From an uncultured Prevotellaceae bacterium (lineage in GTDB: Bacteria; Bacteroidota; Bacteroidia; Bacteroidales; Muribaculaceae), in NCBI GenBank assembly GCA_900318535.1, contig ONKU01000014.1, forward strand, positions 1 through 64,000: a stretch of DNA of 64,000 nt, written 5' to 3'. Numbering within the stretch: the stretch's first letter is position 1; each line of letters opens with the position of its first letter. Positions 36,798 through 59,702 of this stretch are shown here, piece by piece. The notes beneath the pieces are model-generated. The model did no database searches. It saw nothing but the letters and a program-made list of their open reading frames with translations, and had not been told where the DNA came from. The position numbers and the translations under genes are program-made.

Positions 36798-38315
36798 ATG
36801 AAGCTTTTTTCAAGAATAGCCTTTGCCGCTGTCGTGGCATTGCTGATGGCCGCCTGCAGCGGCAGTGAGACAACCTACCAGTACAAGACCCAGTATCTGC
36901 CCGTGCAACTCGTGGGCAGCGAGAAGTGGTCCATTCTGGACGTGAACAACGGCGAGGTGGTCGCCAAAGACGCCTTTGCCAACGCCCCGTCGCCCATTGT
37001 AGCCGGGATGTTCTACGTGATGAACGAGGACGGCAGTTACGACTACTATGACGTGAGCGCCCCGACAACCCCTGTTGCCGGACACTTTGGCAGCGTAACC
37101 TCCTTTAGCGACGACGGCGTGGCCGTTTGCAGCCGTGTGGGCGGTTCGTTGTGCGTCATCGACCGCAAGGGACAGGTGGTCAGGGAATTGCCCAAGGAAG
37201 TGTCGCAGTGCTCGATGTTCTCGCGCGGCATGGCAGCCTTCCAGAACGACAACGGCTCCTGGGGTTACATCAACACCAGTGGCGATACTATCGTACCTGC
37301 AAACTACAGCAGTGCCAACATGTTCCTGTATAACGACTATGCCATGGTCATTGACGAGAACCAGCCCAACGACAGCACGGTCAGCTTTACCGTTATCAAC
37401 AAGAACGGCAAGGTCATGTTCACTGCCAACAGCAGCGAGTACCAGCCCGTACAGCCCTATTTCATCAACGGCGTCCTGCCCGTGATCAAGGGTGACAGCC
37501 TCGTGTGCCTGAACGAGGAAGGCAAGGAAGTAGCCAATCCCATTGATGATTCCGACAAGGTGGAGAAGGCAGGATATGCCGACTTCTCACGCACACCCTC
37601 TGGCGACTATATCGTCATCAAGGACAAGAAGACCGGCATGGTCGACAAGAACAACCAGCCGCTCATTCCCATCGAGCACGATAACCTGATTGACATCAAC
37701 GGCGAGCGCCTGATTGCCGTGGACGGGGACACCTATCACATCATTGACCGCAACGGAAAAGCCGTGGGCGATGTCAAGTTCAGCAATGCCCACGTGAGCG
37801 AGGACAACCCCTTTGCCACGCGCGGCTTTATCGACACCGACCTGGCCGCTGTTGCCCTGATGTCGTTGTTTGAAGAAAACAGCGCATGTGGTGCCAACGC
37901 CAACACCACCCTGATGGACATGAACGGCATGCTCGGCACCGACGCCCGCATGTATGCCGGCAGCAACACGCTGGTGATGCCCCAAGGACCCTACATCATC
38001 CAATATGTATTTGACCGTGAAGTATCCAGCGCCAACGCCGACAGCACCTCGGCCAGCTTCAACTATGACGCCAAGGTGGACCGCGTGATCATCTCGCTGA
38101 ACCTGAACCACTGCCCCGCCAACACCGAGCCCGCCATTGTCAACAAGGTGGAGAGCCGCTTGGGCACCAAGGGCTTTGTGTTCGCCAGGGACGGCATCTT
38201 CTGCAGCGACTACCTGACCGCGTTGACCTTGGGCTATGACAAGGGCGTGATGAATCTGATTTATTACATGCACTTCAACGAATCAGTCCCCCAGGTCAAA
38301 AACAAAAGGAGCTAA
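36798..38315 (+). CDS. WG-repeat lipoprotein
   Basis: A 505-residue exported lipoprotein (lipobox MAACSG). Repeated WG-type units occur through the first 330 residues, for example SEKWSILDVNNGEVVAKDAF, GSLCVIDRKGQV, GSWGYINTSGDTIVP and KTGMVDKNNQPLIPIEHDN (in part), a beta-propeller-like arrangement. The C-terminal about 150 residues have no recognised domain. The function of such proteins in Bacteroidales is unknown. Its stop codon lies inside the heptamer repeat that leads into queD. Confidence 0.82.
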   Translation: MKLFSRIAFAAVVALLMAACSGSETTYQYKTQYLPVQLVGSEKWSILDVNNGEVVAKDAFANAPSPIVAGMFYVMNEDGSYDYYDVSAPTTPVAGHFGSVTSFSDDGVAVCSRVGGSLCVIDRKGQVVRELPKEVSQCSMFSRGMAAFQNDNGSWGYINTSGDTIVPANYSSANMFLYNDYAMVIDENQPNDSTVSFTVINKNGKVMFTANSSEYQPVQPYFINGVLPVIKGDSLVCLNEEGKEVANPIDDSDKVEKAGYADFSRTPSGDYIVIKDKKTGMVDKNNQPLIPIEHDNLIDINGERLIAVDGDTYHIIDRNGKAVGDVKFSNAHVSEDNPFATRGFIDTDLAAVALMSLFEENSACGANANTTLMDMNGMLGTDARMYAGSNTLVMPQGPYIIQYVFDREVSSANADSTSASFNYDAKVDRVIISLNLNHCPANTEPAIVNKVESRLGTKGFVFARDGIFCSDYLTALTLGYDKGVMNLIYYMHFNESVPQVKNKRS

Positions 38316-38352
38316 CAACTAAGAACAAAGAACTAAAAACTAGCGACTAAAA
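38311..38352 (+). repeat. Heptamer-period leader of queD
   Basis: Six 7-base units: GCTAACA, ACTAAGA, ACAAAGA, ACTAAAA, ACTAGCG, ACTAAAA, ending one base before the queD ATG. The first unit contains the stop codon of the upstream gene. Confidence 0.8.
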
Positions 38353-38353
38353 T

Positions 38354-38704
38354 ATGTATTACGTTCAAAAGACACTGGAAATCTCGTCGGCCCACATGCT
38401 GTACCTCGATCACAACAGCAAGTGCGAGAACCTGCACGGCCACAACTGGATTGTGAACGTGTATTGCAAGGCCAAAGAACTTGACGACAACGGCATGGTC
38501 ACCGATTTCACCATGATCAAAGAGATGGTACATGGCAAGCTGGACCACAAATACTTGAACGAGGTGCTTGACTTCAACCCCACGGCCGAGAACATCGCCC
38601 GCTGGATTGTAGACACCGTGCCCAACTGCTACCGTGCCGACGTACGCGAGAGCGCCAACAACCTGGCCATCTACGTCAAGGACGAGGACAACAATGTGGA
38701 GTGA
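38354..38704 (+). CDS. queD: 6-carboxy-5,6,7,8-tetrahydropterin synthase
   Basis: Converts dihydroneopterin triphosphate to 6-carboxytetrahydropterin in queuosine synthesis. Zinc histidines lie in SSAHMLYLDHNSKCENLHGHNW (quoted in part as AHML and LHGHNW), with the catalytic Cys in NSKCENLHG. The length of 116 residues suits QueD. It is followed 85 bases later by queE, with queC and queF about 2 kb away on the other strand. Confidence 0.94.
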   Translation: MYYVQKTLEISSAHMLYLDHNSKCENLHGHNWIVNVYCKAKELDDNGMVTDFTMIKEMVHGKLDHKYLNEVLDFNPTAENIARWIVDTVPNCYRADVRESANNLAIYVKDEDNNVE

Positions 38705-38712
38705 GTTGGGAA

Positions 38713-38747
38713 TTAAGAATTAGGAGTTAGGAGTTAGGAGTTAGGAG
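38713..38747 (+). repeat. Perfect TTAGGAG heptamer tandem repeat
   Basis: One degenerate unit TTAAGAA followed by four perfect copies of TTAGGAG, in the gap between queD and queE. Confidence 0.9.
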
Positions 38748-38767
38748 TTGGCATCCGCGTTTTGACA

Positions 38768-38788
38768 GCTAACAACTAAAAAACAAAC
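38768..38788 (+). repeat. Heptamer-period leader of queE
   Basis: Three 7-base units GCTAACA, ACTAAAA, AACAAAC end one base before the queE ATG. The first eleven bases equal those opening the queD leader. Confidence 0.7.
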
Positions 38789-38789
38789 T

Positions 38790-39380
38790 ATGTGGAAGAT
38801 AAATGAAATCTTTCACTCGCTGCAGGGCGAGGGTTTCAATACAGGCACCGCCAGCGTGTTCATCAGGCTGAGCGGCTGCAACCTGCATTGCGCCTTTTGT
38901 GACACCCGTCACGAGGAGGGCAAGATGATGTCATTGCCCGAAATCGTCGAACAGGTCATGCGCTACCCCAAGGCCCCACTCATCGTGCTCACGGGCGGTG
39001 AGCCGTCGCTGTGGATCGACGAGGATTTCATCAGTGGGCTCAAACAGATGACGGGCAAGCGCATCGCCATCGAGACCAACGGCACCCGCCCCCTTCCCAA
39101 TGGCATCGACTGGGTGACCCTGTCGCCCAAAACTGGTCTGGGCGAGAGTGGAGACCTGCCTGTGGTGCTCACCCGCTGCGACGAGCTAAAGGTCGTTTAT
39201 CTGGGCCAAGACTTGGCCCAATACAACAACATCACGGCCAGCTACCGCTACCTGCAGCCCTGCTGGGTTGAAGACAAGGAACAATGCCGCCGCAACATGC
39301 ACGACACCGCGCAAGCCGTTTTACAACATCCCGAGTGGCGGCTGTCGCTCCAAACGCACCGCATCTTGGGCATTAAATAG
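38790..39380 (+). CDS. queE: 7-carboxy-7-deazaguanine synthase
   Basis: Radical-SAM enzyme that rearranges 6-carboxytetrahydropterin into 7-carboxy-7-deazaguanine. The iron-sulfur motif is CNLHCAFC (CX3CX2C) at about residues 31-38, preceded by FHSLQGEGFNTG. VLTGGEPSL and IAIETNGTR are also typical. The length of 196 residues is normal. Confidence 0.95.
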   Translation: MWKINEIFHSLQGEGFNTGTASVFIRLSGCNLHCAFCDTRHEEGKMMSLPEIVEQVMRYPKAPLIVLTGGEPSLWIDEDFISGLKQMTGKRIAIETNGTRPLPNGIDWVTLSPKTGLGESGDLPVVLTRCDELKVVYLGQDLAQYNNITASYRYLQPCWVEDKEQCRRNMHDTAQAVLQHPEWRLSLQTHRILGIK

Positions 39381-39389
39381 CCATTTCCT

Positions 39390-39412
39390 GTTGCGTTGAC
39401 AACGCAACATAC
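39390..39412. repeat. Palindrome after queE followed by ATAC
   Basis: GTTGCGTT-GAC-AACGCAAC is a perfect 8-bp hairpin with a 3-base loop, then ATAC. It resembles in layout the CAAGCC-type palindromes elsewhere in the window. Confidence 0.6.
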
Positions 39413-39422
39413 GAAACACAAA

Positions 39423-39465
39423 AAGAATCATGCTCACACCGTTGAACGGCGTGAGCATGATTCTT
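39423..39465. terminator. Bidirectional terminator between queE and fabD
   Basis: A 15-bp stem AAGAATCATGCTCAC / GTGAGCATGATTCTT with an inner CCG/CGG extension lies between two convergent genes. The A-rich side gives the minus-strand transcript a T-rich tail. Confidence 0.75.
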
Positions 39466-39483
39466 AAATGTTTGCAGCGAGCC

Positions 39484-40362
39484 TTACTGGCGACCGCTCA
39501 GGACGACGTCGCGGCTGGTCTTGGCGATCAGGCCTTGCAGCACCTTGCCCGGGCCCAGTTCCTCGGCCTCGATCATGCCGTCAGCCACCATGTTGGCAAC
39601 GATGTGGCTCCAACGCACGGGGGCGGTGAGCTGTTGCAGCAGGTTGGCCTTGATTTCCTCAGGGTCGGTGTGGGGCTTGGCATCCACGTCCTGATAGATG
39701 GGACAAACGGGAGCCGAGAAGTCGGCAGCCTCGATGGCCTCGGCCAGTTCGGCACGGGCAGGCTCCATCAGGGGAGAGTGGAAAGCGCCACCCACCTTGA
39801 GGGGCAACGCACGGCGTGCGCCGGCCTCCTTGAATTTCTCACAAGCAGCCTCGATGGCGGCAATTTCACCCGAGATAACCACCTGACCGGGGCAGTTATA
39901 GTTGGCGGGGACACAGATGCCATCGATGGTAGCACAGATCTCCTCCACCTTAGCGTCTTCCATACCGATGATAGCAGCCATCGTCGAAGGAGCGGCCTCG
40001 CAAGCCTTCTGCATGGCCAGGGCACGTGCCTCGACCAGCTTCAGACCCTGCTCAAAGGGCAGTGCGCCAGCGGCAACGAGTGCCGAGAACTCGCCCAGCG
40101 AATGACCGGCAACCATGTCGGGCTTGAACTCCTCGCCCATGGTGAGCGCGAGAATTACCGAGTGCAGGAAAACAGCAGGCTGTGTAACCTTGGTCTGCTT
40201 CAAATCTTCTTCGGTGCCTTCAAACATCAGGTCGGTGATGCGGAAACCCAGCACCTCATTGGCTTTTTCAAACAATTCTTTGGCCTTGGGGTTGTTGTCA
40301 TACAGGTCCTTGCCCATACCGACAAACTGTGCGCCCTGACCGGGGAATACGAATGCTTTCAT
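39484..40362 (-). CDS. fabD: Malonyl-CoA:ACP transacylase
   Basis: Loads malonyl groups on acyl carrier protein for fatty acid synthesis. GQGAQFVGMGKDLY opens the protein, GHSLGEFSALVAAG holds the nucleophilic serine, and GGAFHSPLMEPAR holds the catalytic His. The length of 292 residues is typical. It stands alone, convergent with queE and separated from queC by about 100 bases. A minus-strand -7 box TACCTTTG at 40412-40419 is its likely promoter. Confidence 0.96.
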   Translation of the reverse strand: MKAFVFPGQGAQFVGMGKDLYDNNPKAKELFEKANEVLGFRITDLMFEGTEEDLKQTKVTQPAVFLHSVILALTMGEEFKPDMVAGHSLGEFSALVAAGALPFEQGLKLVEARALAMQKACEAAPSTMAAIIGMEDAKVEEICATIDGICVPANYNCPGQVVISGEIAAIEAACEKFKEAGARRALPLKVGGAFHSPLMEPARAELAEAIEAADFSAPVCPIYQDVDAKPHTDPEEIKANLLQQLTAPVRWSHIVANMVADGMIEAEELGPGKVLQGLIAKTSRDVVLSGRQ

Positions 40363-40411
40363 TTCTTATTTATTCAGTAGTTAATGATGTTTCTTTATTT
40401 CAAAACGGCTG

Positions 40412-40419
40412 CAAAGGTA
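40412..40419 (-). promoter_or_regulatory. -7 element of fabD promoter
   Basis: TACCTTTG on the minus strand, about 50 bases before the fabD start. This makes fabD an independent transcript from queC and queF. Confidence 0.5.
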
Positions 40420-40461
40420 GTCATAATTTCAAAACCACCTAACAAATATGGCAAAAATAAA

Positions 40462-41115
40462 TTATTTCAGGTATTCGGTGGGGTCGTCGATGCCTGCTTC
40501 GCGCAGGGCCTGGCGGCGCTCGGTGCAAGTGCCGCAGGTGCCGCAATGCTTTTCACCGCCCTTGTAGCAGGAGTAGGTCTCACTGTAGTCCAGTCCCAAC
40601 GCAGCACCATGGCGGGCAATCTCGGCTTTACTCAAGTCGGTGTAGGGAGCATAGACCTTGACGCCCTCATAGGTACCCGTCATCATCGCCGTGCTCATCG
40701 CCTCGATGAAGGGTGAACGGCAGTCAGGGTAGATGCTGTGGTCGCCGGCGTGGTTGGCAATCATCACGCGCTTGAGGCCGTTGCTCTCGGCAATGCCACA
40801 AGCAATGGCCAGCATGATGCCGTTGCGGAAAGGCACCACCGTCGATTTCATGTTCTCATCATTGTAGTTGCCGTCAGGAATAGCATCGGCACTCTCGAGC
40901 AGGGCGCTCTTGAAATATTTGTGCATGAAATCCAGGGGAATAATCAAGTGCTTGATACCCAGCCGCTGGCAATGCATGATGGCACAACGGCGCTCACGGC
41001 CGTTCTGGGTACTGCCATAGTCAAAGGTGATGGCCAAGGCAATCTCGTCCTTGTACTCATAGAGCATGGTTGTCGAGTCCATGCCGCCCGATGTAATGAT
41101 AACCGCGTCTTTCAT
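40462..41115 (-). CDS. queC: 7-cyano-7-deazaguanine (preQ0) synthase
   Basis: Converts 7-carboxy-7-deazaguanine and ammonia to preQ0 using ATP. The PP-loop SGGMDSTTMLYEY is close to the start, and the C-terminal zinc cysteines appear in CYKGGEKHCGTCGTCTERRQAL (in part). The ATG at 41115 (MKDAVIITSGG) is the family start; the open frame extends 39 residues further but overlaps queF. The queF stop lies one base before this ATG. Confidence 0.95.
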   Translation of the reverse strand: MKDAVIITSGGMDSTTMLYEYKDEIALAITFDYGSTQNGRERRCAIMHCQRLGIKHLIIPLDFMHKYFKSALLESADAIPDGNYNDENMKSTVVPFRNGIMLAIACGIAESNGLKRVMIANHAGDHSIYPDCRSPFIEAMSTAMMTGTYEGVKVYAPYTDLSKAEIARHGAALGLDYSETYSCYKGGEKHCGTCGTCTERRQALREAGIDDPTEYLK

Positions 41116-41116
41116 G

Positions 41117-41587
41117 TCAATCGTTGTGGAAATTAGCAATGAGGCGCGCACGCACCATGTCCTGATGCTGGCTGTCGCCATAGTTGGCAAACGGCTTGAT
41201 GCTGATGCCCCCACGCGGATTAAACAAGCCAATGACCTCCAGATACTTGGGGTCCATCAACTTGACCAGGTCCTTCATGATGATGTTCACGCAATCCTCA
41301 TGGAAATCGCCGTGGTTGCGGAAACTGAAGAGGTACAGTTTCAGGCTCTTGCTTTCAACCATGCGCACACGAGGGATGTAGTTGATGATGATGTGGCCAA
41401 AGTCGGGCTGGCCCGTCTTGGGGCACAACGAGGTAAACTCGGGGCAATCGAGCGTCACCACATATTCATTCTCAGGGTGCTTGTTCTCGAAAGTCTCAAG
41501 CACATCGGGACGATAATCAAACTCATATTGCGTGCCCTGGTTGCCCAGCAACGTCACGCCTTCTAATTCTTGATCGGTTCTTGACAT
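41117..41587 (-). CDS. queF: NADPH-dependent preQ0 reductase
   Basis: Reduces preQ0 to preQ1. Single-domain (156-residue) type with the active-site cysteine in [16 protein letters not shown] and the [18 protein letters not shown] block (NADPH and substrate site). It is transcribed with queC. A -7 box TACCTTTG lies at 41618-41625 on the minus strand. I see no preQ1 riboswitch in the roughly 35-base leader. Confidence 0.96.
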
Positions 41588-41617
41588 AAAAACAGATGTA
41601 TTTTGCGTTCAGGACTG

Positions 41618-41625
41618 CAAAGGTA
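41618..41625 (-). promoter_or_regulatory. -7 element of queFC promoter
   Basis: TACCTTTG on the minus strand, about 30 bases before the queF ATG. Confidence 0.5.
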
Positions 41626-41695
41626 CAAAAAAGTTTTTAGAAAGATTTCAGTTCCATGATTTACAAATGCTATTGGAACAAGATTGTCTGTAAGA

Positions 41696-41758
41696 CGGTT
41701 TTCGGTGGCTTGGCAGCGGCAGGCTGTCGCCTCGCTTGTGCCAAGCCACCGAGAACCG
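41696..41758. repeat. Long stem-loop between queF and the mosaic gene
   Basis: A 20-bp stem (arms 41696-41715 and 41739-41758) with a single wobble pair encloses a 23-base GC-rich loop. There is no T-run on either side. It may be the 3' end of the minus-strand transcript from the 41781-44213 gene. Confidence 0.75.
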
Positions 41759-41780
41759 ATGATCCTTTAGGGGAAAGAGC

Positions 41781-44213
41781 TTAGAGGGCTAGGCGGAAGC
41801 CTAAGCCATCGGCAGAGTCGGTAGGAAGTGTATGGTTACGGTACCAAACACGTTGGCCAGATTCACCATTGAAGAATGCTCCACCACGGGCGACTCGTTC
41901 TGAGCCTGATGTGGGACCCATGGGATTGGTTTGGGCAGCATTGCTGTAAGTATCATAATAATCGTAGCACCATTCCCAGACATTACCGCTCATGTCAAAC
42001 AGGCCCAACTCGTTGGGCGTCTTCTGCCCCACAGGTTGGGTGGTATCAACATAATTTTGACTCCATGCCACATCGTTAAGCGTGTTGCTGCCGGCATACT
42101 TGTATCCATGGCTCATATTGCCACCACGGGCGGCGAACTCCCATTCGGCCTCGGTAGGCAGGCGGAAAGTCTTGCCCGTCATCTGGTTCAACTTGGTGAT
42201 GAACTCTTGACAGTCGTTCCAGGTGATAGACTCCACGGGTCTGTTCAGGTCACCGGTGAATTGACTCGGGTTGCTGCCCATCACAGCCACCCACAATTCC
42301 TGTGTCACCTCGGTCTCACCGATGCTGTATGACGACAGCGTCACTTGGTGAGCGGGCAAGGCGTTACTTTCATCGCTACTGGGATTATCTCCAGTAAATC
42401 CCATGGTGAAGGTGCCGCCGGCAACAGGCACCATATTGAAAGTCACACCACCGACGCTGAAAGAATTCCCAGGCCAATAGCCACTCAACAGGTAGTCGAT
42501 CAAGGTGGTCACGTCGCTGATGGTCACATTGCCATCCAAGTCACAGTCAGCATTGGCGAGAACGATGCCCGAGGCATCTCCGCTCAGCAGGTAGTCGATC
42601 AGGGCTGTCACGTCGCTGATGGTCACGTTGCCATCGGCATCCACATCACCTCGCATCTCCATATCGCTAATGGTGAGATTGTCCACGGCGAAGTAGTCAC
42701 CCTCGGGGTTGACGCTGCTGTCCTTGGTATATCGCCACGTGAGCGTGTGGGTGCCCGCTGTCAAAGGCATGGAATAATTCTCCCATTCGTTTTTGCGCGC
42801 GCCGTAAGCAAACTGGCTCACGCCATCGACGAGGAACTCACACTTGTCCCACGCTGTGCTTGTGCCCTCGCCCCAAGCCTTGAAATCAAACGAGAGCATG
42901 GACGAAGTGTTAACCGTAACAGTCGATGTCATCTCAGACGTGCTGCTGGACACGCCGGCATTGCCCGACCGGGCATAGGTGCGGTTGCCCTCGGTCACCT
43001 CAATCCACGGATACGCTCCAAGGGAGGTGACCGTGAAAGCGCCACCGCTGACTGCCTGACTGAGGTCGGCACCTAAGCAGACACTGTCCACGGCAAAGAA
43101 GTCGCCCTCGGGGTTGACGCTGCTGTCCTTGGTATATTGCCACGTGAGCGTGTGGGTACCCGCTGTCAAAGGCACGGAATAGGTCTCCCAATCGTTCTGA
43201 AGGGCACCGTAAACAAACTGCCTCTCGCCATCGACGAGGAACTCACACTTATCCCACGCTGTGCTCGAGCCCTCTCCCCAGGCTTTGAAATCAAAGAAGA
43301 GCGACATGGGTTTGCTCAATGTCAGCGTGGCTGTCAATATCGATGAACTGCTTGCCACACCGGCATTGCTCGATTGGGCATAGGTGCGGCTGCTCCCGGT
43401 CACCACTGTCCAGGGATAGTCACCACTAGAAACGAAGTGGATGTTGCCACCCTCGACGTTGAGGGCGCTACTCAACGCATCACCCGATTCATCGGCGAAT
43501 CCCTCTACATGCGTGAACTTGTTCCAGTAATTGGTATTCTGATAGGCATTAAGAGCACTCGAGGGAACATGCAGCGTGGCAGTGGCATAGGTACTCTCTT
43601 CAAACATCGGCTCCTTGAACTCCCAAGCCTCGAGGCTGCGGCAGGTAATGTCCGTCAGACTGGTACAGCCCATGAAGATGTTCAAAGACCAATTGACTTG
43701 ATTGAAACGGCAGTTCGCACCCAGGTCAACAGTGGTGAGCGCCGAGCAGCCATAGAATGCCAATCCGCCCACATAGGTCACCGAATTGGGGATAACCACT
43801 TCGGTCAGAGAGGTACAACTCCCGAAAGAATAACCACCGATGGTGGTCACCGTGTTGGGAATGGTCACTCTGGCCATGCGGCTGCAGCCCGCGAATGCAT
43901 TCTCGCCGATTGTCACGACATTATCATAGATGGTAATACTGGTGATATATTCACAATTCTGGAAGGCTCCATTCCCAATCTCAGTGACACGGTATCCGGT
44001 ACCCGTCGCAGAATTGGTAGCTGTACCGTAGATAGTATAACCGCCAGAAGGCGATGCTATCACGTGACCGACAACCTTGGCCGTGGTGCTGCTGGTGATG
44101 ACATACTGCAGATTTTGGTAAATGAAGTCATAAGTGTCGGCAGCACTGGCAGCCAGTGCGCACGTTAACCACACCGCGAGTGCGGTCAACAGTTGGAGGT
44201 AATTTTTTTTCAT
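41781..44213 (-). CDS. Mosaic secreted protein: BspA-like repeats, duplicated module, dockerin, SUMF1
   Basis: An 810-residue exported protein. After a signal peptide (to ASAAD), residues about 28-245 are BspA-type leucine-rich repeats (IGNGAFQNCEYITSITIYD, IGENAFAGCSRM). Two copies of a 135-residue module follow (about 255-525; YPWTVVTGSSRTYA and YPWIEVTEGNRTYA), then two dockerin repeats (DVDADGNVTISDVTALIDYL and DCDLDGNVTISDVTTLIDYL), then a SUMF1/formylglycine-enzyme-like fold (about 588-808; LPTEAEWEFAARGG, GNVWEWCYDYY). The SUMF1 part lacks the paired catalytic cysteines (its end reads RGGAFFNGESGQRVWYRN), so it is probably a binding domain. Confidence 0.88.
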   Translation of the reverse strand: MKKNYLQLLTALAVWLTCALAASAADTYDFIYQNLQYVITSSTTAKVVGHVIASPSGGYTIYGTATNSATGTGYRVTEIGNGAFQNCEYITSITIYDNVVTIGENAFAGCSRMARVTIPNTVTTIGGYSFGSCTSLTEVVIPNSVTYVGGLAFYGCSALTTVDLGANCRFNQVNWSLNIFMGCTSLTDITCRSLEAWEFKEPMFEESTYATATLHVPSSALNAYQNTNYWNKFTHVEGFADESGDALSSALNVEGGNIHFVSSGDYPWTVVTGSSRTYAQSSNAGVASSSSILTATLTLSKPMSLFFDFKAWGEGSSTAWDKCEFLVDGERQFVYGALQNDWETYSVPLTAGTHTLTWQYTKDSSVNPEGDFFAVDSVCLGADLSQAVSGGAFTVTSLGAYPWIEVTEGNRTYARSGNAGVSSSTSEMTSTVTVNTSSMLSFDFKAWGEGTSTAWDKCEFLVDGVSQFAYGARKNEWENYSMPLTAGTHTLTWRYTKDSSVNPEGDYFAVDNLTISDMEMRGDVDADGNVTISDVTALIDYLLSGDASGIVLANADCDLDGNVTISDVTTLIDYLLSGYWPGNSFSVGGVTFNMVPVAGGTFTMGFTGDNPSSDESNALPAHQVTLSSYSIGETEVTQELWVAVMGSNPSQFTGDLNRPVESITWNDCQEFITKLNQMTGKTFRLPTEAEWEFAARGGNMSHGYKYAGSNTLNDVAWSQNYVDTTQPVGQKTPNELGLFDMSGNVWEWCYDYYDTYSNAAQTNPMGPTSGSERVARGGAFFNGESGQRVWYRNHTLPTDSADGLGFRLAL
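42681..43188. repeat. 405-bp tandem duplication inside the mosaic gene
   Basis: Segments starting at 42681 and 43086 are nearly identical for about 100 bases (for example the shared CCCTCGGGGTTGACGCTGCT) and are 405 bases, or 135 codons, apart. This is the most conserved part of the two 135-residue modules. Confidence 0.8.
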
Positions 44214-44322
44214 AATAGATCAATTTAACAGTTAATAATATCAATTGTTTTAGTTAAACTCATCCGTGGGGATTGCGGTAGGCAGAAGAGTACAACTTAC
44301 TGCTGAAAATGAATCCGCACCG

Positions 44323-44354
44323 CAAAGATATTGGAAAAATTATTAAAAAGCAAG
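44323..44354 (-). promoter_or_regulatory. Promoter of the mosaic gene
   Basis: On the minus strand CTTG is followed after 20 bases by TATCTTTG. The leader to the start codon is about 100 bases, long for this window. Confidence 0.55.
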
Positions 44355-44379
44355 TATATATTCTATAATTATCCTCAAC

Positions 44380-45711: not shown

Positions 45712-45746
45712 TTTTAGTCCTTAGTTTTTAGTCCTTAGTTTTTAGT
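45712..45746 (-). repeat. Heptamer-period leader of the HD gene
   Basis: Five 7-base units on the plus strand: TTTTAGT, CCTTAGT, TTTTAGT, CCTTAGT, TTTTAGT. In the mRNA sense it reads alternating ACTAAAA and ACTAAGG units ending one base before the ATG. Confidence 0.9.
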
Positions 45747-46543: not shown

Positions 46544-46546
46544 ATA

Positions 46547-46581
46547 TCAGTTGTTAGTCTTTAGTTATTTGTTGTTAGAGT
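46547..46581 (-). repeat. Heptamer-period leader of mlaF
   Basis: Five 7-base units on the plus strand: TCAGTTG, TTAGTCT, TTAGTTA, TTTGTTG, TTAGAGT. It spans from the mlaE stop codon to just before the mlaF start. Confidence 0.75.
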
Positions 46582-52602: not shown

Positions 52603-52613
52603 GCGATACTGTG

Positions 52614-53027: not shown

Positions 53028-53067
53028 TGTTATATTGTGTTTAATTTACTAATTATCAAATATTTAA

Positions 53068-53325
53068 CTAATCCTTCATGTCTAATGCCTGTCGCAAGCC
53101 GTTGGCCAGCTGGTCGGGGCACGAAGTGTTCTTGTAGCCGCAACGGATGCCCTGCAGCTTGGCGATGGCATCAGCAGCCTTCATGCCGCGCAACAGCACC
53201 GAAATGCCCTGCAGATTGCCATGGCAACCGCCCGTAAACTGAACGTCACGGATTACGCCTTGCTCGTCCAGTTCAAAATCAATCTGGGATGAACACGTTC
53301 CTTGGGTATAATAAGTGTATTTCAT
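53068..53325 (-). CDS. TSCPD-domain protein (TIGR03905-like)
   Basis: An 85-residue protein with the motif CHGNLQGISVLLRGM and the name-giving tail NTSCPDQLANGL. The same domain occurs at the end of class II ribonucleotide reductases such as the nrdJ product of this window. Four cysteines (CSSQ, GGC, IRCG, TSC) suggest metal binding. The role of stand-alone members is not established. Confidence 0.88.
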   Translation of the reverse strand: MKYTYYTQGTCSSQIDFELDEQGVIRDVQFTGGCHGNLQGISVLLRGMKAADAIAKLQGIRCGYKNTSCPDQLANGLRQALDMKD

Positions 53326-53342
53326 TTTCTAAAATGGGTGTC

Positions 53343-54020
53343 TTACTTCCGTATCAAATCGACCAACCGCTGCTGGTCAAGGATATGCAATTCATTACTG
53401 TCATAGTCCAGGATCTCCTCGTCTGACAGTTTGTCAAGCGAAGCGATGAGCGTCGTGCGCTGCGTGCCCAACAGGGCGCACAGGTCCTTCTGCTTGAAGC
53501 GCAACGTCACATCGGTAGCACCCGTGATAGACAACGCATCCACCAGCATGGCCAAGCGTTCCATGATAGAGCCGTCCCTGGTGGCCAAGATGGAAGACAT
53601 ACTGCGCTGACTGCCTGATGACAGGTAATTCAGGATATTGAACAGGAAGACCTTATCGGCTCCAAGCATCTTGATATAGTCACTCTTGCGCAACTGCAGG
53701 ATGCCGCACGACCCGTCGGCATAAGCATGATAGGGATAGGTCGTTTCCCGGCCGAAAAGATACTCCGCAGCCAGCACATGCGGCATTGCCAAGGTCTGCA
53801 ACAACGACACACGCAGGTGGTCACAGGGAGTTTCCAGCCTGACGCGCCCCGAAACGATGAACCTCATGTGGGTGCATGGGTCACCAGCAGCAAAAATCTG
53901 CTCCCCATTACGGAACTTGAGGAAATGAAACGGCAGTTTCTCGACAAGTGCCGTGATTTTATCGGTGCTCACGCCCTGAAAGAGCGGTAACTGCATCAAT
54001 TGCTGGTACATACTGTTCAT
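53343..54020 (-). CDS. Crp/Fnr-family transcription regulator
   Basis: A 225-residue regulator: a cyclic-nucleotide-binding-type beta barrel (NGEQIFAAGDPCTHMRFIVSG), a long dimer helix, and a C-terminal winged helix (LRFKQKDLCALLGTQRTTLI). There is no N-terminal cysteine cluster as in Fnr. The ligand and targets are unknown; it sits just downstream of hisS on the same strand. Confidence 0.88.
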   Translation of the reverse strand: MNSMYQQLMQLPLFQGVSTDKITALVEKLPFHFLKFRNGEQIFAAGDPCTHMRFIVSGRVRLETPCDHLRVSLLQTLAMPHVLAAEYLFGRETTYPYHAYADGSCGILQLRKSDYIKMLGADKVFLFNILNYLSSGSQRSMSSILATRDGSIMERLAMLVDALSITGATDVTLRFKQKDLCALLGTQRTTLIASLDKLSDEEILDYDSNELHILDQQRLVDLIRK

Positions 54021-54042
54021 AATTCCGGAAATCTGAATCGAA

Positions 54043-55407
54043 TCACTTTCCCAAATGCTCGATGACCTGTTCGACAGTCAACGACTGCTGTTCACCGGTG
54101 ACCATGTTCTTGAGCGCAATCGTGCCGTTCTGCACCTCGTCTGCTCCGACTATGGCCACATAGGGAATCTGGCGGTCGTTGGCGTAATTCATCTGTTTCT
54201 TCATCTTGGCGCTGTCGGGATACAATTCTGCGCTGATGCCTGCACGGCGCAATGCCATGATGTGCTTCAACGAAGTAGCCGCCTCCAGGTCGCCAAAGTT
54301 GACGAACATCACGCGAGCCGTTGCCATGGTGTCGGCAGGATAGAGGTCGAGAGCATTCAGTACATCATAGATGCGGTCGGCACCAAAGCTGATGCCCACA
54401 CCCGACAAGCCGGGCATGCCGAATACGCCCGTCAGATTATCATAGCGTCCACCACCCGTAATGCTGCCAATGGCAACATCCAGGGCCTTGACTTCGAGAA
54501 TGGTGCCCGTGTAATAGTTCAAGCCACGCGCCAGCGACACATCGAGTTCCACGTGGGCACGAGTGCCCAAGGCAGCAACCTGGGTGAGCACATAGCGCAT
54601 CTCCTCGATGCCCTTCATGCCCACTTCGCTGCTTGCCAGCATTCCTGCCAGCGCGGCCAGTCGTTCCTCGTTGGTACCATCAAGTGCCAGCAAGGGCTGC
54701 AAGGTGGCAATTGCCTCATCGCTCAAGCCTTTCTCCTTCAACTCGGCATTGACGTTATCGATGCCGATCTTGTCGAGCTTGTCGATGGCGACGGTGATAT
54801 CAATAATTTTGTCGGCAGCACCGATGACCTCGGCAATACCGCTCAGGATCTTGCGATTGTTCAGCTTGATGGCGACATTGATGTTGAAACGGTTGAACAC
54901 CTCATCGATCATCGTCACCAGTTCCACTTCGTTCCACAGCGAGTCGCTGCCCACGATGTCGGCATCACACTGGTAGAACTCACGGTAACGGCCCTTCTGC
55001 GGACGGTCGGCACGCCACACAGGCTGCACCTGGTAACGCTTAAAAGGCATCTGCACGTCGTTGCGGTGCTGCACGACATAGCGTGCAAAGGGCACCGTCA
55101 AGTCGTAACGCAGACCCTTCTCGCTGATCTTGGTAGTCAAGTGCAGCGAGTCATGTGCCGCCAGCAGGTCGTCGGGGGCATCCTTGAGATAGTCACCGCT
55201 GTTCAGGATCTTGAACAACAGTTTGTCACCTTCCTCGCCATACTTGCCCATCAGTGTGGACAGGTTCTCGATAGCGGGTGTTTCAATCTGCTGGAATCCG
55301 TACAGCAGGAAGACGTCTTTGATGGTGTTAAAAATATAGTTGCGGCGCGCCATCTCGATGGGTGAGAAGTCGCGCGTCCCCTTGGGGATAGATGGTTTTT
55401 GTGCCAT
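54043..55407 (-). CDS. hisS: Histidyl-tRNA synthetase
   Basis: Charges tRNA-His. Class II synthetase with motif 1 region, motif 2 in [12 protein letters not shown], the histidine-specific [13 protein letters not shown], and [16 protein letters not shown]-terminal anticodon-binding domain ends the 454-residue protein. Six 7-base repeat units directly abut its start codon. Confidence 0.97.
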
Positions 55408-55449
55408 TTAGATTATTTGTTTCTAGTCTTTGGTTTCAAGTTGTTAGTT
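55408..55449 (-). repeat. Heptamer-period leader of hisS
   Basis: Six 7-base units on the plus strand directly after the complement of the start codon: TTAGATT, ATTTGTT, TCTAGTC, TTTGGTT, TCAAGTT, GTTAGTT. Divergence between units is high but the period is exact. Confidence 0.7.
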
Positions 55450-55457
55450 TTCATTGA

Positions 55458-56138
55458 TCAGCGACGGCGGCCTCCTAAGAAAATGGCAGCGTAATATAAT
55501 AATGTAGCGAGTGAACCGATGGCTGCTACCACATAGGTATAGGCAGCGGCATGCAAGGCGTCCTTGGCATAGCCCAACTGCTCACCGCCAACGATTCCCG
55601 AGCCCTCGAGCCACTTGATGGCACGACGGCTGGCATCCACCTCGACAGGCAGCGTCACAAAGCTGAATGCAACCGTTGCAGCAAACATGGCAAGTGCAAT
55701 ATACAAGGGCAATGCGGTCATTTCATACACGGCAATGCCGGCAAGCAGCAGCCACTGCACCGTTTTGGAAGCAAACGACACGATAGGAACCATCTTGGTG
55801 CGCAACTGCAGCATGCTGTAGCCCACCTTATGCTGAACGGCATGGCCGCACTCGTGAGCAGCCACTGCGGCAGCAGCGATGCTGTTGGTGCCATAGACGG
55901 GCTCACTCAGGTTCACCGTCCTGTTGGCAGGGTTGAAGTGGTCGGTCAACTGACCGCTCACACTGGTCACCTGCACGTCGCCGCAGCCGTTCTGCTGCAG
56001 CATCGCGATGGCAACGTCACGTCCAGCCATGGGCACGCCCAATGGAACTTTACTATACTTCGCAAACTTTGACTTGAGGGAGTTCTGAACAATCAAGCTC
56101 AGGATAAAAATACCTCCCATTAAAATATACACAAACAT
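55458..56138 (-). CDS. Zinc membrane metalloprotease, YugP-like
   Basis: A 226-residue membrane protein with the zinc site AAHECGHAVQH, a third ligand probably in LPVEVDASRRA, and four hydrophobic segments. The N-terminal GVPMAGRDVAIAML and VSGQLTDHFNPANRTVNLSE are typical of the YugP-type family. Its substrate is unknown. An imperfect heptamer repeat (56149-56171) precedes the start. Confidence 0.88.
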   Translation of the reverse strand: MFVYILMGGIFILSLIVQNSLKSKFAKYSKVPLGVPMAGRDVAIAMLQQNGCGDVQVTSVSGQLTDHFNPANRTVNLSEPVYGTNSIAAAAVAAHECGHAVQHKVGYSMLQLRTKMVPIVSFASKTVQWLLLAGIAVYEMTALPLYIALAMFAATVAFSFVTLPVEVDASRRAIKWLEGSGIVGGEQLGYAKDALHAAAYTYVVAAIGSLATLLYYAAIFLGGRRR

Positions 56139-56339
56139 GCTGTAAGTATTTAGTTGTTAGTTTTTTTAGTTGTCAGACGCTTAAAAACATTTTTTTGCTG
56201 GCAGCGACCAGTTTGGCACGAAAATTGTAGCAAAAGGCGCTGGACCAGATTACGCACCGCAAAGGTAAAGTTTTTTGGTCGCAAAACCGCCCAAAAGGAC
56301 AATAAAAGTGCTAAAAAATGAAAATTGGGAGCAAAAAAA

Positions 56340-56370
56340 TTTGCCAATTCAAAAATAGCCGTTACATTTG
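56340..56370 (+). promoter_or_regulatory. Strong promoter of the Ala-rich lipoprotein
   Basis: TTTG (56340-56343) and TACATTTG (56363-56370) are exactly 19 bases apart. The following leader is about 45 bases of AT-rich sequence. The rest of the gap back to 56139 is AT-rich with no gene. Confidence 0.75.
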
Positions 56371-56422
56371 CGGCGTTGATTCGTTTTATTATTAATCATT
56401 TATTTATTTAAGTTGTTTTATT

Positions 56423-56980
56423 ATGAAGAAGTTTTTATTGATGTTTGCAGCTGTTGCTGCTATCGCTTTTGTTGGTTGCAAGACTGAGACCAAGCCCGCT
56501 GAGGAAGCTGCTGTTGAAGAGGCTCCCGTAGCTGAGTACACTGTTGACGGTGTAGCTAACGAGCTGCTGAACTGCGCTGATGAGGCTGCTGCTGTTAGCC
56601 TGCTCGATGGTATCAAGGCTAAGGCTGAGGAGTTGCTGAACGGTGGTGACCAGGCTGGTTACTTCAACATCATCAACATCCTGAAGACCGTTTGGGACAA
56701 CAACAAGGATGCCATCCTGGCTAAGATCCCGACCCTGGCTGAGAAGATGACCAGTTACATCGATGTTCCCGAGAACCTGAAGGCTGGTTTTGCTGAGTTC
56801 GTAGCAAAGCAGGCTGCTGAGAAGGTTGGTGAGGCTGTTGACGCTGCTACCGACGCTGCTACCGAGAAGGTTGACGCTGCTAAGGAGGCCGTTAAAGATG
56901 CTGCTGGCAATGCCGTTGACGCTGCCAAGGAGAAAGGTGCTGAGGCTGCTCAGAAGGTAGCTGACGAGCTGAAGAACTAA
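56423..56980 (+). CDS. Alanine-rich helical lipoprotein, probably highly expressed
   Basis: A 185-residue exported lipoprotein (lipobox AFVGCK). The C-terminal about 60 residues repeat an 11-residue-like pattern of Ala, Lys, Asp and Glu (EAVDAATDAATEKVDAAKEA), similar to LEA/apolipoprotein-type amphipathic helices. Codon choice is extreme (GCT, GAG, AAG, CTG), unlike its neighbours, and promoter and terminator are both near consensus, pointing to high expression. Function unknown. Confidence 0.85.
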   Translation: MKKFLLMFAAVAAIAFVGCKTETKPAEEAAVEEAPVAEYTVDGVANELLNCADEAAAVSLLDGIKAKAEELLNGGDQAGYFNIINILKTVWDNNKDAILAKIPTLAEKMTSYIDVPENLKAGFAEFVAKQAAEKVGEAVDAATDAATEKVDAAKEAVKDAAGNAVDAAKEKGAEAAQKVADELKN

Positions 56981-57010
56981 TCTAGAACACAAGATTAATC
57001 CCTTATAACA

Positions 57011-57050
57011 AATCAGGGCTGGCTCTTATGGGCCAGCCCTGATTGTTTTT
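57011..57050 (+). terminator. Strong intrinsic terminator
   Basis: A perfect 13-bp stem AATCAGGGCTGGC / GCCAGCCCTGATT with an 8-base loop and a following T-run. Confidence 0.9.
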
Positions 57051-57060
57051 TCTTTTCTTA

Positions 57061-57081
57061 CAAGCCGATGGCTTGCAATAC
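57061..57081. repeat. Gene-end palindrome plus AATAC (copy 3)
   Basis: CAAGCC-GAT-GGCTTG followed by CAATAC, nine bases before the end of the convergent GNAT gene. Confidence 0.6.
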
Positions 57082-57089
57082 CAGAACAT

Positions 57090-57596
57090 CTAGCGGGATG
57101 AGGTGGCGGCTTTTTGATAGGCGAGGCGCTCGTCGCCGCTGAGCAGATAGATGATGCCGCAGTAAGTGAAGCCGTAACGCTCAATGACATGGCGCATGAT
57201 CACGTTGTCGCGATGGGTGTCGATGCGCAAGCAACCAGCCACGTCCATGCAATAGTCCATCACGTCGTTGAAAATGCCATGACTCGCTGCCGTGCTGGCC
57301 AAGCGGTGCACCACATAGTAGGGTTGATCGTCCAGCCACTGGCCTTCATAAATTTCCTTGTAAGTGGGCTCAGGGCCAGGGATGAAGGCAAATGAGGCAA
57401 CAATCTCCCCACCCTGCTCCACACACAGGTAGCAATGCCCGTTGTTGATGTCGTTCTCAATGGTCTCACGACTGGGATAGCCGCCAATCCACTGGTTCAC
57501 GTTACCACACGACCGCATGATGCCGCGCGCCTCCTCGATGAGCCGCATGATGACCGGCACATCTTCCATCCTTGCTTTTCTAAACGTCCTATTCAT
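57090..57596 (-). CDS. GNAT-family N-acetyltransferase
   Basis: A 168-residue acetyltransferase fold: FRKARMEDVPVIMRLIEEAR opening, CYLCVEQGGEIVASFAF central strand, and the end LRIDTHRDNVIMRHVIERYG with GFTYCGII, which covers the acetyl-CoA site. The substrate is unknown. It follows the M3 peptidase gene by about 20 bases on the same strand. Confidence 0.85.
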   Translation of the reverse strand: MNRTFRKARMEDVPVIMRLIEEARGIMRSCGNVNQWIGGYPSRETIENDINNGHCYLCVEQGGEIVASFAFIPGPEPTYKEIYEGQWLDDQPYYVVHRLASTAASHGIFNDVMDYCMDVAGCLRIDTHRDNVIMRHVIERYGFTYCGIIYLLSGDERLAYQKAATSSR

Positions 57597-57616
57597 ACAG
57601 TAATCCTGATTTGTTC

Positions 57617-59674
57617 TTATTCATTGTCAGTTGAAATGGCAATGCCGTCGCGGCGCATCATGGCATCGATGCGGGGCTCACGACCGCGAAAGCGCTGATA
57701 AAGCGCCATCGGGGCCTCGGTGCCACCACGGGAGAGCACGTTATCGACCCACTGGCGGGCTGTCTCCCGATTGAAAATGCCGTCTTCCTTGAACTTAGAG
57801 AAGGCGTCACACTCTATCACTTCGGCCCATTTGTAGCCGTAGTAACCCGCAGCATATCCACCCGAGAAAATATGGGTGAACTGCGGAGACATGATGCAAC
57901 CTTCAACAGGTTCAAATGCCTTCACATCCCTGGTCGCATTATACTCGAATTGGAAATCATCGCCCACATAGGGCTCTGAAATGCTGTGCCAGGCCATATC
58001 GAGAAATCCGAAGCCCAACTGCCGCACACAAGCGTACGCGGCACCATACTGCGACGATGCCAACAGGCGGTCAATCAGTTCCTGCGGAACGGGCTCGCCC
58101 GTCTGGTAATGACAAGCAAAACTATCCAAAAATTCCCGCTCATAGACGTAGTTCTCGTTGAACTGTGAGGGCACCTCGACAAAGTCACGATAGACGTTGG
58201 TGCCCGAGAGTGACTGGTACTTGCAACGGCTCAACAGCTGGTGCAATGCGTGACCGAACTCGTGCATGAACGTCTCGACCTCACGCACGGTGAGCAACGA
58301 CGGCTTCGTATCGGTAGGACGGGAGAAGTTCATCGTCAAGGTCACCAGCGGCCTCACGTCATTACCGTTCTCGTCGATGTACTGCTCACGGAAACTCGTC
58401 ATCCATGCTCCGCTCTGCTTGGTAGCACGTGGGAAGAAATCGAGGTAGAGCACACCCACAGCCTTGCCGTCCTCATCAGTCACGTCAAACACCTCCACCT
58501 CGGGATGGAACACCTGTGCATCGTGGTTGGGGACAAAGCGCAGGCCATACATCCGCTTGGCAAAGCCAAAAACGCCCTTGGTCACCTTGCTCAACTCGAA
58601 ATATGGACGCAACAGCTCATCGTTGATGTCAAACATCGAGTCCTTTTCCTTATTGCTGTAATAGCTGTAGTCCCAGGGCATGATTTCTACCTTCTTGCCC
58701 TCCAGTTTACCAGCAAATTCGGTCAAATGCTCCATCTCGCTGCGTTCCACCGGCAAATAAGCCTCACGCAACTGGTTGAGCATGTTATAGACCGCTTGGG
58801 GCGTCTCGGCCATCGTATGCTGCAGTTTGTAGTCGGCAAAGGTTTTGCAACCCATCAGGCGGGCGATATCCAATCGGGTGTTGGCAATGTCTCGCAGCAC
58901 ATCCAGATTGCAGTATTCACCGCTGGTACACTGGCGGTTGTACATCTTGTACAATTTCTCGCGCAAGTCGCGACGGTCGCTGTACTTCATGAACGGGCCA
59001 TAACTGGGCGCATCCAGCGTGATCAGCCAGGCATCCTCGCGGCCTTTTTCCTTCGCCGCCTGACGTGCCGCGTCAAGGGTGCTCTCGGACAATCCGGCCA
59101 GGTCGTCCTGTGTGAGCCACAGTTCATAACGGGGAGTTTCCTTAAGGGCGTTCTGGTCAAACTTCAAAGTCAATTCAGTCAAACGCTTGGACAGTTCGCG
59201 ATAACACTCACGGTCAGCACCTTGCAGATTGGCACCGCTGCGGATGAAGCCGTCGTAGGTCTCACGCATCAGCATCCGGTCCTCGACATCATGCCGTGAG
59301 GCATCAAAATGGTCGTGTACATGTTTCACGCGTTCCCACAACTGCTCATTGAGCGTAATGCTGTTGAAATGCTCACTCAACAGTGGGGCCATGCGGTTGC
59401 TCACCTCTAACAAGGCATCGTCGGCATTGGCCGAGAGCATAGGGTAATACACACCCAGGACACGGCTCAGGGTCGCTCCTGCACGGTCGAGCGCAACGAT
59501 GGTGTTCTCAAAAGTCGCCTCAGCTGCATTGCCTGCGATGGCTTTGACTTCGGCATCATGTTCCTTGATACCCTGACGGATGGCAGGCTCGTAATCGGCC
59601 GTCGTGATGCGGTCAAAAGGTATGGTTCCTCCCGTTGTCCTGAACGGCTTGAAAAATATATTGTCCTCGATCAT
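57617..59674 (-). CDS. dcp: M3-family dipeptidyl carboxypeptidase (Dcp-like)
   Basis: Zinc oligopeptidase of about 685 residues that trims dipeptides from peptide C-termini. The active site is FMHEFGHALHQLLS with the third ligand in the DFVEVPSQFNENY region. The ATG at 59674 (MIEDNIFFKPF) is preferred to a GTG at 59686. No signal peptide is seen, so it is cytoplasmic. A heptamer repeat abuts the start codon. It lies 30 bases downstream of mutS2. Confidence 0.92.
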   Translation of the reverse strand: MIEDNIFFKPFRTTGGTIPFDRITTADYEPAIRQGIKEHDAEVKAIAGNAAEATFENTIVALDRAGATLSRVLGVYYPMLSANADDALLEVSNRMAPLLSEHFNSITLNEQLWERVKHVHDHFDASRHDVEDRMLMRETYDGFIRSGANLQGADRECYRELSKRLTELTLKFDQNALKETPRYELWLTQDDLAGLSESTLDAARQAAKEKGREDAWLITLDAPSYGPFMKYSDRRDLREKLYKMYNRQCTSGEYCNLDVLRDIANTRLDIARLMGCKTFADYKLQHTMAETPQAVYNMLNQLREAYLPVERSEMEHLTEFAGKLEGKKVEIMPWDYSYYSNKEKDSMFDINDELLRPYFELSKVTKGVFGFAKRMYGLRFVPNHDAQVFHPEVEVFDVTDEDGKAVGVLYLDFFPRATKQSGAWMTSFREQYIDENGNDVRPLVTLTMNFSRPTDTKPSLLTVREVETFMHEFGHALHQLLSRCKYQSLSGTNVYRDFVEVPSQFNENYVYEREFLDSFACHYQTGEPVPQELIDRLLASSQYGAAYACVRQLGFGFLDMAWHSISEPYVGDDFQFEYNATRDVKAFEPVEGCIMSPQFTHIFSGGYAAGYYGYKWAEVIECDAFSKFKEDGIFNRETARQWVDNVLSRGGTEAPMALYQRFRGREPRIDAMMRRDGIAISTDNE

Positions 59675-59702
59675 TTCTCTAATCACTAATCTTTAATTCA
59701 AA
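59675..59702 (-). repeat. Heptamer-period leader of the M3 peptidase gene
   Basis: Four 7-base units on the plus strand directly beyond the start codon: TTCTCTA, ATCACTA, ATCTTTA, ATTCAAA. In mRNA sense the core is TTAGNGA. It fills almost the whole mutS2-M3 gap. Confidence 0.65.

Follow-up and report, generated by a model that had tools for sequence, protein, structure and literature searches.

Seven-base repeat arrays at gene starts and gene ends in an uncultured Muribaculaceae genome and its congeners

Introduction

Tandem repeats with a seven-base unit (heptamers) are known from several bacterial lineages, and a survey of bacterial simple repeats published in 2007, reportedly by Mrazek and co-workers, treated them statistically. 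In that survey unit length 7 was over-represented and polymerase slippage was suggested as the cause, and the account of it given in a later paper mentions no border or polarity rule (cited in PMC4692102). Here we examine heptamer repeats starting from a 64,000-nucleotide (nt) stretch of an uncultured Prevotellaceae bacterium (GenBank assembly GCA_900318535.1, contig ONKU01000014.1, positions 1 to 64,000; Muribaculaceae in the GTDB lineage), which we call the window. A preliminary description of this window had proposed that 7-base repeats with a CTAA or TTAG core form the leaders of many unrelated genes. We find that these arrays are not mainly a leader feature, given that they abut gene ends as often as gene starts, and that the leader view describes one side of a symmetrical pattern for which precedents are in print.

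The best-described precedent for a location before start codons is the TAACTGA repeat. In marine Beggiatoaceae, arrays of this unit are mostly intergenic and lie in forward orientation before start codons, most commonly ending 1 nt upstream, and a translational role has been suggested for them there; some overlap the end of the upstream open reading frame (ORF), and between two Cyanothece strains insertions and deletions occur mostly in 7-nt steps (PMC4679880). The same account lists the repeat for cyanobacteria and for five Bacteroidetes, including Paludibacter, with a patchy phylogenetic distribution. Therefore, neither heptamer arrays in Bacteroidetes nor their place ahead of starts is new, and the novelty that had been claimed for the leader association falls away. 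A polarity rule is on record in Xanthomonas and Nostoc for the heptamers GGGAATC and GGGGA(C/T)T, whose G-rich strand lies on the coding strand past the ends of ORFs and on the non-coding strand ahead of them (PMC4692102). In the accounts cited, the border or polarity rules of Beggiatoaceae, cyanobacteria and Xanthomonas are presented without an explanation.

The arrays described below differ from TAACTGA repeats in having several unit families, in lying at stops as much as at starts, in forming mostly inverted pairs and in a 14-base step; in strain BOGUAY a single unit was followed, and 12 of 170 sets were directed toward a stop (PMC4679880). Read in a shifted phase, TAACTGA is CTGATAA, which is one base away from the CTGAAAA and CTGACAA units found on the start side in one of our congeners (G407). 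The Xanthomonas and Nostoc units are unrelated and contain G runs that form quadruplexes, our commonest units lack GGG, and their description, as far as it is cited here, holds no counterpart to the linker GGCATCCGC or to the hairpin-tail class reported below (PMC4692102). In the open-access literature that we searched, we did not find arrays of this kind from rumen Bacteroidales, the 14-base step, the exchange of units at a fixed gap, or the hairpin-tail class.

Sequences and definitions

The window is part of contig 31 of its host genome, which comprises 2.92 Mb in 43 contigs. Judged by hisS identity, its nearest named metagenome-assembled genomes are RUG14590 (94%), RUG12777 (94%) and RUG373 (92%), which we take from their names to be rumen Bacteroidales. 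We sampled 844 kb of the host genome in 41 pieces, of which 15% is intergenic. This sample is biased, because 20 of the 41 pieces (380 kb) were chosen for matches to a CTAA pattern (with the exception of L020, for which none is listed); the remaining 400 kb were chosen afterwards from leftover sequence. Six congeners contributed 940 kb, in which four stretches are non-random, being located at the queD-queE locus (G407, G415, G402) or next to a Y1 transposase gene (L140, G290), and the count leaves out 14 short contigs fetched from G397 and G390. A separate scan covered G213, G330, G323, G337, G209, G297, G276, G312 and G189, with L140 of G290 in both sets. A further set of stretches served for the tail class only, apart from L276 and L279, which were also used for the gap upstream of the HD gene.

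A codon-usage script of ours called the ORFs, and the positions of starts are therefore approximate. An array is a lag-match call, with a threshold of 12 in the 844-kb scan and of 11 in the leftover 400-kb set and the window. Dinucleotide shuffles provided the background for the 844-kb period scan, and fold z-scores rest on 60 mononucleotide shuffles. Placement and polarity were scored for the host genome and the six congeners together, on the 139 arrays whose gap measured 14-500 nt. The queD-queE comparison used the 20 best-scoring loci of 101 genus genomes, the host included.

Period 7 in intergenic sequence

The period-7 signal is real, genome-wide and larger than first reported. The 844-kb sample holds 56 intergenic period-7 arrays against 0.2 per shuffle, and the comparison with periods 6, 8 and 9 that had been suggested as a test comes out in favour of period 7: there are 12 arrays at period 8, 7 at period 9 and 0-2 at each of periods 4-6 and 10-13, with 0-0.2 per period in shuffled sequence. 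Period 14, a multiple of 7, accounts for 35. Counts for periods 7, 8 and 9 were 13, 4 and 6 in the leftover 400 kb, 4, 0 and 0 in the window alone, and 78, 6 and 31 in intergenic sequence of the six congeners, so that period 9 ranks second in the congeners, which it does not in the host genome. Coding sequence yielded a single period-7 array in the 844-kb sample and none in the 940 kb of the congeners. With intergenic-to-coding counts of 56:1 and 78:0, the arrays agree with the definition of TAACTGA-type repeats as direct and mostly intergenic.

Across the whole host genome, CTAA-N3 repeated four times has 80 matches (overlapping ones counted) versus 10 for the reversed pattern, and some of those 10 may themselves be arrays, because CTAATC-type arrays hold both words. 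The CTAA pattern was found very unevenly, in 68 of 198 genomes of the order and 49 of 149 of the family. One genome of another family (G189, 2.3 Mb) has 281 matches and no period-7 array in the 40 kb scanned, so its matches lie elsewhere.

Placement at gene borders

Arrays lie close to ORF borders, at a median distance of 7 nt where random placement in the same gaps would give 17.5 nt, and 63% are within 10 nt. The preliminary description had expected a special link to start codons, which did not emerge: of the arrays in co-directional gaps, 68 have the stop as their closer border and 49 the start, and one is equidistant. Start-side arrays do exist, as that description had proposed. However, the TTAGGAG arrays assigned to rsgA and queE adjoin the upstream stops, and the array at the C1 peptidase gene is a 3' tail. 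Nor is there a fixed register to the ATG in the 46 leaders scored; in 29 of them the last core begins 5-10 nt upstream, spread about evenly over the six places, and in the rest it begins further away. The two borders also differ in how far they are invaded, since in the host and the six congeners together 34 of the 101 arrays at 3' ends of genes extend over the stop codon, whereas 1 of the 72 at 5' ends extends over the start.

Array density is lowest in divergent gaps (0.28 per kb in the host, 0.12 in G407, G415 and G412 combined) and highest in co-directional gaps (1.40 and 2.41). Scored as gaps with an array, this contrast has p=0.03 in the host and p=0.001 in the three congeners, and it lacks significance in the unselected host set (p=0.74).

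Strand polarity and base composition

In the sense of the adjacent gene, CTNA arrays outnumber TNAG arrays 42:7 on the start side, whereas on the stop side the ratio is 21:47 (Fisher p=2.4e-9). The rule persists in gaps with a single array, at 19:4 and 16:27 (p=6e-4). It is clear in the host and in G407, weak in G412 (4:4 at starts, 4:6 at stops), and the other congeners have too few arrays to judge. Convergent gaps hold 10 TNAG arrays to 5, and divergent gaps depart from the rule with 4 TNAG to 2 CTNA, although these are few cases. The TNAG sense of 47 of 68 stop-side arrays and the CTNA sense of 42 of 49 start-side arrays reproduce the polarity described for Xanthomonas and Nostoc. The start-side figure also matches the forward orientation close to starts that is typical of TAACTGA repeats, yet 68 of our arrays are nearer a stop.

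Leaders lacking an array have an excess of A and a shortage of G (AT skew 0.125, GC skew -0.127), a bias that is stronger where arrays are present (0.279 and -0.186). A set of 52 array-bearing leaders is likewise richer in A and poorer in G than 783 others. Array-free 3' flanks have values near those of leaders (0.119 and -0.096), whereas 3' flanks with an array have a GC skew of +0.20. Base composition can therefore account for the start-side polarity; as the source of the stop-side polarity it is ruled out by the opposite GC skew of array-free 3' flanks. That the same polarity has been published for unrelated G-rich heptamers of Xanthomonas and Nostoc (PMC4692102) suggests a general cause.

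Inverted pairs and the linker

Of 665 gaps of 30-300 nt, 109 have an array and 32 have two or more. The 34 pairs of neighbouring arrays are mostly inverted in one arrangement: 26 read TNAG then CTNA on the plus strand, one the reverse, and seven run in the same direction. Two-array gaps (mean z -4.0, n=30) fold more strongly than a sample of 150 gaps with no array (mean -1.6; p=4e-5), which is not the case for single-array gaps (mean -0.6, n=62).

The 9-base form of the linker, GGCATCCGC or GCGGATGCC, is dispersed, with 26 intergenic and 22 coding occurrences in the 844 kb, of which 15% is intergenic. It often adjoins arrays and sometimes forms both halves of an inner stem. In G213 (L137, 248-319), a terminator-like hairpin (GGGCTCCGCC...GGCGGAGCCC) stands between two genes, and its stem is lengthened by inverted heptamers with an ATTATGA unit.

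Unit variation

In CTAA-type arrays (404 units), departures from the array consensus amount to 1, 1, 6 and 2% at the four core positions and to 17, 13 and 14% in the three-base spacer, which makes the core about six times less variable, although registering the arrays by their core might favour its conservation somewhat. Variation in CTGA-type arrays (87 units) is concentrated in one spacer position (31%), and 19 of 137 arrays have no CTAA, CTGA, CTAG or CTTA core. The spacer is itself restricted: among CTAAxyA units of the host, GG occurs 29 times (13 expected), CG never (10) and GA 10 times (23). The commonest units, CTAAAAA, CTAAGGA, TTAGGAG and TTAGAGT, lack GGG, whereas CTAGGGA and TTAGGGT contain it, as judged at the level of units. 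An exact TAACTGA unit was not among them, most units being CTAA plus a spacer, and CTGA being found chiefly in G407 and G423.

Adjacent units within an array resemble each other no more than they do once the unit order is shuffled (125 versus 121), and the same holds for units three apart (51 versus 55). Units two apart are more alike (106 versus 89, a value reached in none of 300 shuffles), which defines the 14-base step. Single-unit runs exist too: the window has 4 x TTAGGAG, and adjacent identity exceeds that expected from the pool of CTARxyA units in G407 (0.35 versus 0.19) and G415 (0.28 versus 0.18), though not in the host (0.15 versus 0.14). Consequently, birth by slippage of one heptamer followed by uniform decay, as first envisaged, fits neither the lack of likeness between adjacent units nor the contrast between core and spacer in CTAA-type arrays.

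Turnover among congeners

An array is present in the queD-queE gap at 16 of the 20 loci compared, that is, in 15 of 19 congeners; two loci have no gap and two have no array at threshold. At several the order is stop, TTAG-type array, linker, CTNA-type array, start, although many have a single arm or lack the linker. The units differ among genomes and include TTAGGAG, TTAGGCT, GTTAACA, CTGAAAA and TCTAAGG.

The gap upstream of the HD gene has an array at threshold in 8 of 23 genomes, the host included. Here the expectation that unit number varies at one and the same gap was borne out between species, with 5 ACTAR cores in the host, 9 in G415, 8 in G357 (below threshold) and 33 in G401, where the gap measures 250 nt against 47 nt in the host and is built on a 14-base unit (222 of 248 lag-14 matches). 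Other HD gaps have a TTAG-type array past the upstream stop, other units or no array. No array occurs in the hisS leader of three near species, and the hisS region of the window has no array in common with L053-L055. Core preference also changes between genomes, CTGA being the core of 14 of 38 arrays in G407 and G423 compared with 1 of 102 in the host, G415 and G412 (p=2e-8), and units such as TAGATTA and CAGATAA occur in G290.

A hairpin-tail class

The C1 peptidase array belongs to a separate class of tails (AGTTTAGAGTTTAGGGTTTAG..., with the form AG(TTTAGRG)n). Its 19-base core has 15 exact copies in the host genome and 27 with at most one mismatch, some of them overlapping, and is present in 29 of 101 genus genomes at up to 33 copies. 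Eleven of the 15 exact copies start 1-2 nt past a hairpin (score of at least 10 bp) whose stem is gene-specific, and all eight of these that are readable are found 27-48 nt beyond the stop codon of a same-strand gene; the remaining four come after a GCTCGC-type repeat or a variant thereof. In several genomes taken together, 28 of 60 tail arrays, a set that includes interrupted arrays whose hairpin escapes the scan, have a stem of at least 7 within 6 nt upstream, compared with 5.4% of 500 random intergenic positions. The hairpin and its near-constant tail are perhaps a candidate 3'-end signal. A scan for canonical terminators at window positions 63500-64000 found none, although visual inspection shows a stem and then a run of T on the 3' side of the C1 array. 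In G401 (L260, L261 and L262), tandem composite repeats of about 60-64 bases combine GCATCCGC, a GCTCGC-type motif and a TTTAGAG array.

Discussion

On balance, we consider it somewhat probable that the arrays are a Bacteroidales version of a general class already known, heptamer arrays dispersed between genes, and that they arise by slippage and spreading and are tolerated at gene borders. Arrays would be born and would change in length by slippage, with a marked two-unit step, and unit types would spread between loci until a genome shares a small alphabet of units (mostly with a CTAA core, in some species with CTGA as well, plus the restricted three-base spacer). Because ORFs would exclude arrays, these would pile up at borders, where they would supply the upstream stop codon in about one-third of cases and would not reach start codons. 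On the start side, selection on leader composition might keep the CTNA strand, given that an A-rich, G-poor leader would suit initiation that does not use Shine-Dalgarno pairing. The complement would prevail at stops largely through pair geometry, since arrays sharing a gap are mostly inverted with respect to each other and could fold in the transcript.

Several findings weigh against this explanation. Composition leaves the TTAG-type polarity on the stop side unexplained, because array-free gaps have A over T and C over G after stops too, and pairing cannot be the whole cause of it, because single-array gaps still lean 27:16. Arm-specific pairing was rejected: arms of the same gap score 13.2 and arms swapped within a genome 12.4 (permutation p=0.26), so the pairing is generic. 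Plain slippage accounts neither for a core common to most arrays nor for the variation of 0.01-0.06 in the core versus 0.13-0.17 in the spacer of CTAA-type arrays; among CTAG-type (51 units) and CTTA-type (68 units) arrays this difference is weak or missing. Finally, we found no mechanism by which units would spread between loci.

CTNA-type arrays before starts might be selected leader elements that tune translation initiation, as the preliminary description had suggested and as has been proposed for TAACTGA in Beggiatoaceae. Besides the CTNA sense of 42 of 49 start-side arrays and the one-base distance of the G407 units from the TAACTGA phase, A stands at position -3 in 63% of the 52 array leaders versus 48% of the 783 others, and both an A at -3 and structure are described as tuning initiation in Bacteroidota (PMC6847099). 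However, as many arrays follow stops, there is no fixed ATG register, all three near species lack an array in the hisS leader, most of the 22 relatives have no start-side array at the HD gap, and the genes share no evident function, which together make this idea unlikely. We regard as slightly less credible a trans-acting RNA- or DNA-binding protein that reads a CTAA or TTAG core every 7 bases, with the unit tracking the factor between species. Such a reader would fit the low variability of the core in CTAA-type arrays, the genome-specific core preference, and place and polarity that are often kept while units change; it sits poorly with several unit families in one genome. An extension of the same thought, which we consider improbable, is a punctuation code in which CTNA arrays before starts and TNAG arrays after stops would be read at 7-nt spacing by a species-specific factor, so that the units of a genome would shift together with place and polarity fixed even across phyla. 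RNA recognition motif (RRM) domains favour UAG-type RNA, and an RRM-type reader (PF00076) was the sole candidate class tested. We rejected it, because PF00076 is unmatched in the host genome and in 147 of the 149 genomes of the family that were searched, whereas Synechococcus elongatus and Bacteroides ihuae were positive among 14 controls (2 of 14).

Repetitive extragenic palindromic (REP) elements and the bacterial interspersed mosaic elements built from them are dispersed, intergenic, palindromic and composite, and are associated with REP-associated tyrosine transposases (RAYTs). REP-like mobility through a Y1 transposase would suit dispersed, inverted, intergenic arrays, the 19-base exact copies at 15 places, the G401 composites with their GCATCCGC and GCTCGC motifs, and the two Y1 transposase genes of the host. 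Our arms differ from REP elements in being period-7 arrays of variable length, and no RAYT linkage was found: both Y1-gene gaps lack a heptamer array, the nearest array to the first being about 0.8 kb away beyond another gene, and in a hand tally 7 of 24 family genomes with at least 10 CTAA-pattern matches have no PF01797 match, even though Y1 transposases are found in 88 of 149 family genomes. Mobilisation by RAYTs is thus a weak candidate, and REP-like origin quite improbable. Least credible of all, in our judgement, are six-frame stop-codon insulators, in which period 7 would place TAA or TAG in all frames of both strands. CTAA contains TAA and, on the opposite strand, TAG, 7 cannot be divided by 3, and 34 of 101 arrays do supply a stop codon; however, insulation leaves polarity unexplained, the published GGGAATC arrays have the same polarity with no stop on either strand (as read directly from the unit), and period 9, which is divisible by 3, ranks second in the congeners (31 versus 6 for period 8), if not in the host (7 versus 12). 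As a separate observation, the Y1 (PF01797) genes lie at L133 5491-6720 and L134 5959-6996, with inverted motifs such as GAGACGCAAAATTTTGCGTCTC near the first.

With about a hundred sequenced species and different units in one and the same gap, this genus offers a natural experiment on the origin, spread and tolerance of such arrays, and it makes a function in leaders or tails directly testable. Even if they are tolerated filler only, the arrays still illustrate how fast gene ends and start regions can be rewritten.

Loci in the window

Ten stretches of the window had been named as period-7 repeats. Each was tested for the best of lags 5-9 against 5000 mononucleotide shuffles of its own letters, and seven have a lag-7 signal beyond shuffles: p<0.001 for rsgA, queD, queE 38713-38747, HD and C1, p=0.009 for mlaF and p=0.02 for M3, values that flatter the single stretches because all ten were chosen by eye. 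The signal was not significant for queE 38768-38788 (p=0.12), hisS (p=0.15) and the YugP-like gene (p=0.49). Tandem Repeats Finder recovers six of the ten and misses queE 38768, mlaF, hisS and YugP. The presence of a stop codon inside the first unit is confirmed at queD and mlaF. The features are collected in Table 1.

Table 1. Stretches of the window proposed to have period 7, with adjoining features (window coordinates)
Feature	Position	Strand	Remarks
TTAG-type array (sense TTAGGAG), rsgA	22063..22087	-	starts 4 nt past upstream stop, 23 nt before rsgA start
CTAA-type array, imperfect, filling gap upstream of queD	38311..38352	+	upstream TAA stop 38313-38315 inside first unit
TTAG-type array (TTAGGAG)	38710..38749	+	5 nt past queD stop; left arm of inverted pair
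Linker GGCATCCGCG between queD-queE arms	38750..38759	+	9-base form GCGGATGCC/GGCATCCGC
CTAA-type stretch before queE	38768..38788	+	weak alone (p=0.12); CTNA-type arrays here in several relatives
CTAA-type array before HD gene	45712..45746	-	14-base unit (TTTTAGTCCTTAGT) x 2.5; 5 heptamer cores
Degenerate CTAA-type array, upstream gene/mlaF	46544..46574	-	upstream TAA stop in first unit; 46547-46581 p=0.009
hisS leader	55408..55449	-	period 7 not significant
YugP-like gene leader	56149..56171	-	period 7 not significant
Marginal stretch, TTAG-type in sense (GATTAGTGATTAG), separating two genes	59675..59702	-	listed M3 GTG start (59686) inside
Hairpin, 10-bp perfect stem (TTTTAGTTGC...GCAACTAAAA)	63642..63668	+	just past C1 peptidase stop
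Hairpin-tail array AGTTTAGAGTTTAGGGTTTAGAG	63668..63690	+	among 15 exact genome copies of its 19-base core

At gathering score, the sole Rfam match in the window is a tRNA gene (121-193, minus strand), with none at the arrays.

Arrays of other periods also occur. Those of period 8 (L003 19913-19935, L004 4785-4816, L016 8014-8036, L045 19913-19935) are dispersed in intergenic sequence and have units CTTAGCGC or CGCTAAGC and variants, several of them ending in GCGTGAGGC or GCGTGGGG. Period-9 arrays with units ACAACAAAT, ACGAATGAA and ACAAGAAAT are located at L003 6013-6043, L003 6104-6126, L049 7006-7027 and L049 9838-9859.

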